Source: Sphingomonadaceae bacterium
GTDB lineage: Bacteria; Pseudomonadota; Alphaproteobacteria; Sphingomonadales; Sphingomonadaceae
Assembly (NCBI GenBank): GCA_030147805.1
Contig: JASBUR010000031.1
Coordinates: 1-64,000, forward strand
DNA: 64,000 nucleotides
Reading direction: 5' to 3'
Shown: positions 29,119-42,932 of the stretch, piece by piece
How the letters are laid out: every line of letters starts with the position of its first letter
How positions within the stretch are numbered: position 1 is the stretch's first letter
Position numbers and translations under genes: made by a program
Notes under the pieces: model-generated
What the model saw: only the letters and a program-made list of their open reading frames with translations
Told to the model about the DNA's origin: nothing
Database searches by the model: none

Positions 29119-29386
29119 TTGCCGTCCCCCGTTCGTTCAGCGTTGAAGGCGCTCTTAGCGCGAGGCGAAATCGCGGTCCATTAACGATGCTTGACGGCTC
29201 GTCGCGCTAGCGCATTGCCTTGTCTTGGAAATCAAAAAATTAAGATTCGGGGCCTTGCGGCGTCCCCGGATTAGGCACAGGATGTGGTTCTGGGACTGGG
29301 GGGTCACCACCATATCATGTGGATGTCGCGGAAAGCTTCTCGACGATTCGCGGCGGTGACTCCGAAAGCCCCGGAAGGCTTTGGCC

Positions 29387-29413
29387 TGTGGATAGCGAGG
29401 ATATCGGGGATGG
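29387..29413 (-). promoter_or_regulatory. Triple 9-mer DnaA-box-like array upstream of nrdA
   Basis: Minus strand CCATCCCCG-ATATCCTCG-CTATCCACA, three contiguous 9-mers, 63 bp upstream of nrdA ATG; near-identical array at 41513-41539. Confidence 0.45.
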
Positions 29414-40284: not shown

Positions 40285-40460
40285 TCATCCCCGCGAAGGC
40301 GGGGACCCACCCGAGACCAAGCTCTACCCTTTGCGCTCACCCTGAGCATGCCGAAGGGCGAGCTTGCTCCACCCCCTCGGCGCGCCAACCCTGCTTCGAC
40401 AAGCTCAGCATGAGCGCTTGGGGTGTGCTGGAGTGGGTCCCCGCCTGCGCGGGGATGACA
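40285..40460. repeat. Composite nested palindromic repeat (inner module inverted relative to 35557 copy)
   Basis: tcatccccgcgaaggcgggga...ctcaccctgagcatgccgaagggcgagcttgc...ctgcttcgacaagctcagcatgagcgc...ccccgcctgcgcggggatgaca. Confidence 0.85.
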
Positions 40461-40491: not shown

Positions 40492-41391
40492 TCACTCGGC
40501 GATATAGCGCCACGCTCCCGTCGCATCGCGCTTCCACACGGTGAAGAACGGGACCTTGTCGGGCTGGCCGGCGGGCGGCTTCGCCTTGGCGCGGATATGG
40601 CCGAAGGTCACGCCGAGGTCGCCGCCCGGCGCCACCAGCACGCCGGCGTCGGGGCCCCAGTCGAGCGGGCTCTCGGTCTCGGGGCCGAAGTTGCTCGCCG
40701 CGATCGTCGCCGCGCCGATCGCGAAGCCGGCGCCGCCGCCCATGTTCATCGCGTCGTCATGGCCCCATTTGGCGAAGGCGGCGCGCAGCCCGATCACCTG
40801 CGCCTCGGCGGCGAAGGCGCGTTCGGCGGCGGCGAGCGCCTGCGCCGCGTCGCCGGCGCTCGCCGGCGCGCCGGCGGGCAGCGAGGGCGGCAGCATCGCC
40901 GTCGACACCGCGCCCGCCGGCCGCGGCACGCGCTTGTAGGCGGCGACGCGCCAGCCCTCGGGCTGCCGCACCCAATAGGCGAGATACTTGCCCGGCCGCT
41001 CGGGCTTGCCCGGCTCGCGCGTGGTGATGAAGCCGAAGCTGAAGCCGTGGCTGCCGTCGGCCGACACGCCGCCGCGCACCGGTGCCCAGCCGACGCGCGC
41101 CACCTTGTTCGCCGGGTTCGAGCCGAGCAGCGCCACCGCGTCGGCCTTCGACGCGGTGAAGCCGCCCGCCGGCGTCGGCATCCGCACGTCGTCGGCGAAC
41201 ATCGCCGACAGCGCGGTGACGACGTCGACCTCGGCCGCCGCCGCCGCGAACGCGCGGTCGGCGGCGAGCAGCGACTCGACCGCCGCCTGCGCCGCGGCGG
41301 GCGCCGTCGGGGCCGCGGCGGGCTGCGCGGCGACGGGGGCGGGGAGGAGCGCGGCGAGCGCCAGCGCCGCGGCGGCAGAAAAAAGCTTCAT
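40492..41391 (-). CDS. Secreted DUF4440/SnoaL-like protein with two tandem domains
   Basis: MKLFSAAAALALAALLPAPVAAQ signal peptide; two related segments (ESLLAADRAFAAAAAEV..., ALAAAERAFAAEAQV...). Confidence 0.85.
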   Translation of the reverse strand: MKLFSAAAALALAALLPAPVAAQPAAAPTAPAAAQAAVESLLAADRAFAAAAAEVDVVTALSAMFADDVRMPTPAGGFTASKADAVALLGSNPANKVARVGWAPVRGGVSADGSHGFSFGFITTREPGKPERPGKYLAYWVRQPEGWRVAAYKRVPRPAGAVSTAMLPPSLPAGAPASAGDAAQALAAAERAFAAEAQVIGLRAAFAKWGHDDAMNMGGGAGFAIGAATIAASNFGPETESPLDWGPDAGVLVAPGGDLGVTFGHIRAKAKPPAGQPDKVPFFTVWKRDATGAWRYIAE

Positions 41392-41512
41392 CTCTCGGGC
41401 CTTCTTTGCTAGGAGGCCGCCGCACCCGCCGGCCCGCCTCGTCGATGCCGCGCTTTTGGTGCGATTAGGACTAAATGGCGAGCCGGTTTCGGCACATGCC
41501 ACTGGTCGATTC

Positions 41513-41539
41513 TTATCCCCGTTATCCTCGTTATCCACA
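41513..41539 (+). promoter_or_regulatory. Triple 9-mer DnaA-box-like array
   Basis: TTATCCCCG-TTATCCTCG-TTATCCACA, contiguous 9-mers; the last is the consensus DnaA box. Confidence 0.5.
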
Positions 41540-41580
41540 GGCCCGCGACGCGATTTTGCGCTCGCGCGACTCGGCGCGTC

Positions 41581-41932
41581 ATGAGAGCTTTCGGATGTGG
41601 CCGGGGACGGCGACGGAGGCGGAAACGCCGAAGGCGCCAACAACCGGACACCGCGGAGCCGACCAGCCGCCCGAACGCCCGCAAGGGCGAACGGAACGCT
41701 CGAAGCGCCGGAGACGCCGACCCGAGGCGACGCGGGTACCGGAAGCGCAAGCGGACGGTGCCAGACGAACCAGGGCACGGCGGGAGCGAGACGCACTGAC
41801 CCCCCGTGGCCAAGGCGTCGAGCCACGCCGGGACGAACGGGCGAGCCGCCCGCTGCCGCAAGGCACCGAGAGGCCGACGACCGGGACCCCCGACGAAGTG
41901 GGGGCTGGCAGCAATGCCGGCCCCCATTTTCC
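41581..41932 (+). ncRNA. Candidate structured non-coding RNA
   Basis: Plus-strand GNRA hairpins GGCG-GAAA-CGCC (41618), CGCCC-GCAA-GGGCG (41676), TGCC-GCAA-GGCA (41854), GGGGGCTGGCA-GCAA-TGCCGGCCCCC (41900); no recognisable protein in any frame. Confidence 0.45.
41900..41932 (+). terminator. Terminator-like hairpin, 11-bp stem with GCAA loop followed by ATTTTCC
   Basis: GGGGGCTGGCA GCAA TGCCGGCCCCC ATTTTCC; one G-U pair, otherwise perfect. Confidence 0.55.
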
Positions 41933-41991: not shown

Positions 41992-42073
41992 CGTCATCCC
42001 GACGAAAGTCAGGATCTCCATCCGCTTTGCACCGGGTCCCGTTTCGGGAGATCCTGACGGTCGTCAGGATGAC
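41992..42073. repeat. Palindromic repeat related to 27503-27568
   Basis: gtcatcccgacgaaagtcaggatctcc...gggagatcctgacggtcgtcaggatgac. Confidence 0.8.
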
Positions 42074-42356: not shown

Positions 42357-42932
42357 TCACCGGGGGGCAGCGAGGTCGGCGAGGCTGTAGTCGCCGAGGC
42401 TTTCGGTTTGGATTCGCGCATCGAGATAGGCCTCGTCCACCGTTTCAGCGGTCGCGTATAGCAGACGCGCCTGCCCCAACATAACAGGATCGCCGCCTGA
42501 TGCCGCCGCCGCCTGGCCCATCCGGTCAGCGATCAGATCCTCGATCCCGATGACGAGGATTTCGCCGCCATCATCAAGGGTGAAACGGCGGCGGCGCAAC
42601 GGATCGGCTGAGCCTCCCATCATCGACGATCCAACGACTTCGACCCCCATCGGCAGCGTCGAATGGATGAACCCGCGCAGCGACCGTCCCCGGCCGCCGG
42701 GTCGTTCGAAGCCGAGTTCGGCCAATACCGTCTCGAACTCGGCCTGCGCCACGGTCACGAGGTCGAAGTCCCCCGTCGCGACGGCTCCCGCCGTATAGAG
42801 CTCGACAGCCGCCCCGCCGACGAGCGTCGGCTGATACGCGCCACGCTCACGGAGGCGGCGCATGGCTTCGCCCAGCAGGCGCAGGCCGGCCAGGAACGGG
42901 AGGCGATAGGGCGAAGCGTCGGTCACGGGCAC
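42357..42932 (-). CDS. Nucleotidyltransferase-superfamily protein (AbiEii/DUF6036-like), possibly frameshifted at the C-terminus
   Basis: LVGGAAVELYTAGAVATGDFDLVTVAQAEFETVLAELGF: nucleotidyltransferase-type G-G and D-x-D signature. Confidence 0.75.
   Translation of the reverse strand: MPVTDASPYRLPFLAGLRLLGEAMRRLRERGAYQPTLVGGAAVELYTAGAVATGDFDLVTVAQAEFETVLAELGFERPGGRGRSLRGFIHSTLPMGVEVVGSSMMGGSADPLRRRRFTLDDGGEILVIGIEDLIADRMGQAAAASGGDPVMLGQARLLYATAETVDEAYLDARIQTESLGDYSLADLAAPR

Follow-up and report, generated by a model that had tools for sequence, protein, structure and literature searches.

A structured RNA gene family of the Sphingomonadaceae with a predicted replication-linked promoter

An earlier note on a 64,000-nt stretch of a Sphingomonadaceae genome (hereafter the window, which lies on the contig called C14 here) had picked out positions 41581-41932 as a candidate plus-strand, structured non-coding RNA (ncRNA) of ~350 nt, rich in hairpins capped by GNRA loops. 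This raises the question of whether the locus is an RNA gene in its own right, where such a gene would begin and end, and what its product might do. We approached it through the statistics of the window copy, its relatives in other genomes, and the anatomy of the DNA at its two ends.

Results

A strand-specific excess of GNRA hairpins

Each of the hairpins named in the earlier note was located on the plus strand by direct reading, and the features of the locus are collected in Table 1. When perfect stems with 4 or more Watson-Crick pairs closed by a GNRA loop are counted, the interval 41581-41932 has five in the plus sense; the mean of 500 dinucleotide-preserving shuffles is 0.14, and none of them reached five. 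The minus strand of the same interval holds none, in agreement with the claim that such loops occur in the plus sense only. The GNRA hairpin content of this interval is far beyond chance and strand-specific. When folded, the RNA region had a minimum free energy (MFE) z-score of -3.1 in the plus sense, against -0.9 in the minus sense. Its excess of A over T is one that only 3 of 3183 segments of the window reach, and the window copy also contains a CCCCCC run at 41800-41805.

The RNA proposed for this interval stood, but its bounds did not. The ATG at 41581 falls within the promoter, at about the -10 position, with the start of the RNA predicted near 41597, and the promoter module (41508-41590) begins 5′ of the interval originally drawn.

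Table 1. Features at and around the predicted RNA gene; positions are those of the window.
Feature	Position	Strand	Remark
DUF4440 gene	40492-41391	-	divergent from the RNA; flanks the locus
Additional GANTC site, GATTC	41508..41512	+	just 5′ of the array; read directly in the window copy
Three tandem 9-bp DnaA-box-like repeats, TTATCCCCG-TTATCCTCG-TTATCCACA	41513..41539	+	read directly; conserved in the family
-35-like element CTCGCG	41561..41566	+	family consensus CTTGGC or TTTGAC; inferred by alignment
GACTC, a GANTC (CcrM-type) site	41568..41572	+	abuts the -35; context CGACTCG
-10-like element GAGCTT	~41585..41590	+	family consensus TGACAGCAT; inferred by alignment
Predicted RNA gene	41597..41930	+	~334 nt; promoter-to-terminator interval; start predicted
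GNRA hairpin GCCG-GGGA-CGGC	41600..41611	+	additional to those of the earlier note
GNRA hairpin GGCG-GAAA-CGCC	41618..41629	+	
GNRA hairpin CGCCC-GCAA-GGGCG	41676..41689	+	
6-bp hairpin CGGGCG-AGC-CGCCCG	41838..41852	+	read directly in the sequence
GNRA hairpin TGCC-GCAA-GGCA	41854..41865	+	
Intrinsic terminator, 12-bp stem TGGGGGCTGGCA-GCAA-TGCCGGCCCCCA then TTTT	41899..41930 (stem-loop 41899-41926)	+	kept family-wide
Unassigned ORF	42357-42932	-	other flank

Some other features of the surrounding DNA are recorded here. About 60 bp past the terminator lies a 27-nt inverted repeat of 89% complementarity (41993-42073), possibly a REP-like palindrome, and another inverted pair with 31-nt arms is found at 40285-40458. 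The segment 46001-48000 has a G+C content of 0.505 against a background of ~0.69 and may have been acquired recently.

Relatives of the locus in the Sphingomonadaceae

About 100 related loci were found, almost all of them in Sphingomonadaceae. The first DNA search for relatives yielded two informative kinds of short match, one to the segment ~41515-41574 and the other to the terminal hairpin. Both ends, promoter segment and hairpin, are present 0.4 kb apart at one locus (G028), and in G021 the hairpin match is accompanied by the upstream motif at the corresponding distance. This motif, ATCCNCNNTATCCACAG-N(20-32)-GCGACTC, was present in 29 of 401 family genomes, while the reversed control pattern gave 0; in ~85,000 species genomes it was found in 81 stretches, nearly all from Sphingomonas, Sphingosinicella, Hephaestia, Sphingobium and similar genera.

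A sequence model built for the promoter (R1) picked out 16 of 119 family genomes at E < 1e-10; the window copy scored E = 7e-19, a value that is not independent because this copy was among the 56 sequences used to build R1. No strong R1 match occurred among ~47 genomes from other families of the order, and the RNA family therefore looks restricted to the Sphingomonadaceae.

By pairwise scores the window copy is nearest to Sphingosinicella-type RNAs. Culturable carriers of the gene include Sphingomonas baiyangensis (L084), Sphingobium boeckii (L096) and Sphingosinicella microcystinivorans (L089). Two tandem copies of it, ~440 bp apart and each having a promoter array and a terminator of its own, are carried by Sphingomonas sp. 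LaA6.9 (L086:6203-7021) and S. cavernae (L104:6616-7425). In a second genome group (L028-L032) the gene upstream of the RNA is argG-like, as judged by sequence reading; TTATCCAC boxes replace the tandem array there, and several loci carry an inverted TTATCCAC/GTGGATAA pair. The neighbours vary between homolog groups, among them genes for OsmC and glycine-zipper proteins, UvrD and a cupin (all by sequence reading) as well as trpF, and thus no single gene accompanies the RNA throughout.

Covariation and coding potential

Across the family (n = 101) each RNA carries on average 2.01 GNRA hairpins on the plus strand. Shuffled sequences average 0.14, which makes the enrichment ~14-fold, and the minus strand averages 0.08. 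Covariation among sphingomonad homologs, which the earlier note had put forward as a check, proved strong in class I, the best-aligned subclass (14 sequences). Its five-helix consensus is paired in 97.4% of cells, with 44 cells changed on both sides against 14.3 in shuffles. The covariation score was 0.312 against 0.148 for shuffles (0 of 500), and sliding controls gave 0.02-0.09. Helix 1 is invariant and speaks neither for nor against structure. Many compensatory pairs were also seen in a larger set of related sequences. The purine-rich internal loop of class I, GGAAG / CCAAGAA, is almost invariant.

The RNA body evolves fast, and the class I core motif is not common to all subclasses. A motif search does not find the core (GGCGCCGGA / CCAAGAAGGGCC / GACGCCTGAG) in the window copy, and the class I covariance model (R2) detects no core there, matching its 3′ end only (E = 7e-9); the window copy is not, therefore, counted as a member of the class I core. 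Its internal structure rests on thermodynamics and GNRA statistics, not on covariation of its own. It would equally be expected that the interior of such a locus evolves fast if selection acted on the act of transcription and not on the RNA product, but the GNRA enrichment and the covariation both argue against this.

The long overlapping ORFs that run through this GC-rich DNA would be in keeping with a protein-coding region. However, indels between close homologs are blind to codon phase (25, 147 and 69 with lengths of 0, 1 and 2 modulo 3, respectively), stops occur in nearly all frames of most homologs, and the covariation favours an RNA. The indel pattern in practice refutes a coding function, to which we would give next to no chance. 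Homologs in many genera that share the promoter and terminator, GNRA enrichment, subclass covariation, codon-phase-blind indels and the lack of any Rfam match (see below) all uphold a plus-strand structured ncRNA of about the proposed length.

A conserved terminator and the question of an antiterminator

The terminator corresponds to helix 5 of the class I alignment, where it shows compensatory changes. A strong terminator lies 286-670 nt downstream of GCGACTC in 68 of the 91 extracted loci, often as GTGGGGGCTGGCAGCAATGCCGGCCCCCATTT or a near-identical sequence. Every newly examined strong R1 match except L170 has one 306-740 nt downstream; most of the weaker, array-only matches are without. 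One narrow DNA pattern for the terminator, run over 161 genomes, returned few cases because the spacing of the stem varies. A strict promoter/terminator scan of the window locus gave no match, the -10 being weak and the U-tract only four long. The arrangement shared within the family, consisting of a DnaA array, GANTC at -35 and a GNRA-capped terminator 0.3-0.7 kb downstream, is present in the window copy.

It had also been suggested that a CCCCC just upstream could pair with the GGGGG of the terminal stem. In the window copy these stretches (41887-41891 and 41900-41904) are able to pair, as they would in a cis-acting, riboswitch-like leader or attenuator that used them as an antiterminator. 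In aligned relatives, however, CCCCC is absent from the equivalent place, and the suggested antiterminator was abandoned. The differing neighbour genes of the homolog groups and the minus-strand orientation of the next notable ORF (42357-42932) also count against a leader, which we regard as highly improbable.

Promoter anatomy

Comparison across the family shows the parts of what is predicted to be an independent transcription unit, namely a conserved promoter module, a GNRA-rich, purine-looped body and a GNRA-capped terminator. Within the upstream array, the last repeat (TTATCCACA) fits the DnaA consensus TTATNCACA, and its neighbours are weaker but keep the 9-bp register. The -10-like GAGCTT of the window copy is a weak fit to the sigma70 consensus; a clear -35 is seen in L167-L169, as TTTGAC-GACTC.

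Counts of GANTC conservation taken from the pattern search are biased, as the pattern itself required GCGACTC. Independent evidence is provided by L028-L032, five loci found via the terminator alone, which combine TTATCCAC boxes with GACTC, GATTC or GAATC at the -35 place, and more weakly by L165, with GAATC at the GANTC position. Such variation of N within a retained GANTC is expected of a CcrM methylation site.

In the window copy the site stands within CGACTCG. Read as its reverse complement, this fits YGAKTCG, the extended GcrA motif that PMC7987155 cites for promoters activated by GcrA, and the genome from which the window comes has a gene for GcrA. At ctrAP1 of Caulobacter, GcrA covers the -35 and the adjacent GAnTC on hemimethylated DNA (PMC3667746). 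With a GANTC in the -35/-10 region (41568-41572), the promoter resembles in sequence the GcrA/CcrM-dependent sigma70 promoters (PMC3667746, PMC7987155); unlike these, it adds an upstream DnaA-box array (41513-41539), placed relative to the promoter as in members of the DnaA regulon. Together, the DnaA boxes and GANTC suggest that the RNA may be switched on at chromosome replication.

The DnaA-box array at other sites

If up to 1 mismatch is allowed, four places in the window's own genome carry the array pattern, the RNA locus included. One lies on contig C45, in the region that separates hemE from PPSR beside maf; as established for Caulobacter, this is the classic origin neighbourhood of alphaproteobacteria. 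Another lies in the window at ~29376-29413 (minus strand), with the pattern match at 29386-29402, between the fumarase and ribonucleotide reductase (RNR) genes, and the fourth, with 1 mismatch, falls in a region of overlapping ORFs and looks like chance. At the fumarase/RNR array a GAGTC is found 32 nt downstream of a TATCCAC box, a spacing that resembles the geometry of the RNA promoter.

Exact matches to the composite array/GACTC motif were also found in other alphaproteobacteria: between PPSR and hemE, at the presumed oriC, in a metagenome-assembled alphaproteobacterium (L077:899-949), upstream of dnaB (L091) and next to dcd (L088). By our estimate a collection of that size would yield one or two matches by chance, but the contexts of those found are striking.

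As the array is shared with the genome's own oriC-like region and with the fumarase/RNR site, the RNA looks like a member of the DnaA, and probably also the GcrA/CcrM, cell-cycle regulon. In Caulobacter, DnaA directly activates the gcrA, hdaA, ftsZ and mipZ promoters (PMC3193534). The array is like DnaA-regulated promoters and oriC clusters in having a TTATCCACA box accompanied by weaker ones at 9-bp steps and in recurring at the genome's own oriC and RNR sites; it is unlike the DnaA-regulated promoters of replication proteins in that it appears to drive an RNA gene. The RNA locus was also considered as a replication origin and rejected, there being no clear GC-skew switch and the hemE/PPSR origin region lying on a different contig.

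The same array could make the locus mainly a DNA element which titrates or reloads DnaA in the manner of datA or DARS, the RNA being a by-product. The likeness to DnaA boxes, the presence of the array at oriC and the rapid evolution of the RNA body would all be in keeping with this. However, GNRA hairpins are enriched specifically in the RNA sense, compensatory changes occur in the RNA, and promoter geometry and terminator are both conserved. We therefore think a pure DNA element unlikely.

Comparison with known RNA families

No Rfam 15 family matched the window RNA or 16 homologous loci at curated or gathering thresholds, and a search of L090 up to E = 1 also gave no match. Matches that appeared at relaxed E values (eukaryotic miRNA, IRES and Pseudomonas P2 families) were chance-like. 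The exclusion of RNase P, tmRNA and SRP in the earlier note agrees with this. The RNase P RNA of the genome (RF00010) lies at C27:18074-18453 (306 bits), with none in the window, and tmRNA was found in the window by neither ARAGORN nor Rfam. No match to 6S RNA (RF00013) was found in the genome itself; three other genomes that carry the present RNA family (G021, G011 and G020) have their 6S at separate loci.

In size class and GNRA-rich architecture the sphingomonad RNA is like the large bacterial RNAs of Rfam (6S, RNase P, tmRNA and others), from which it differs in having no Rfam match at the gathering threshold. Such an RNA was described in none of the open-licence papers searched. We rate it as a new, uncatalogued family of structured ncRNA with a putatively replication-linked promoter.

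Discussion

The locus is best explained, we consider with somewhat better than even confidence, as an independently transcribed structured ncRNA of a Sphingomonadaceae family, linked to S phase and acting in trans. DnaA would bind the promoter array, and GcrA with sigma70 would act at the CcrM-methylated GANTC. Control of this kind would tie transcription to replication initiation or fork passage, that is, to S phase. With less certainty, the free RNA may then bind mRNAs or a protein and in this way act in trans on some function in replication or the cell cycle.

The nearest functional analogue would be CcnA, a 182-nt cell-cycle ncRNA of Caulobacter crescentus that is located in the origin itself and has a CtrA box; its unpaired CCCC loop pairs with GGGG in the 5′ UTRs of ctrA and gcrA (PMC8959179). 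The sphingomonad RNA is somewhat like CcnA in being an alphaproteobacterial ncRNA linked to replication or cell-cycle regulators and to DnaA-box DNA, and no homology is claimed. It is longer (~334 nt in the window, 286-740 nt in the family) and has DnaA boxes and GANTC in place of a CtrA box. Nor is it transcribed from the origin as CcnA is: the RNA gene lies on C14, whereas the oriC-like region of its own genome (hemE/PPSR/maf) is on C45.

One branch of the trans-acting explanation is that the RNA, still under cell-cycle control, binds a protein as a sponge or scaffold and does not pair with mRNAs. Its compact GNRA-capped hairpins and the nearly invariant purine-rich loop of class I would suit such a role, and we noticed no conserved long single-stranded seed. 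Against it, the core motif is absent from some subclasses; protein binding is a possibility to which we give less than even weight. About as tentative is the proposal that the RNA provides feedback on replication initiation, with the promoter fired by DnaA and GcrA as S phase begins and the product tuning cell-cycle regulators or a replication protein.

We know of almost no RNA regulators wired into the DnaA/GcrA/CcrM circuit, CcnA of Caulobacter being the main precedent that we found. The significance of the locus lies in a conserved, uncatalogued RNA gene in environmentally important bacteria, whose promoter sites resemble those of the replication initiator. If the feedback proposal were true, this RNA would form an RNA arm of the cell cycle in alphaproteobacteria, and would have evolved independently as a counterpart to CcnA.
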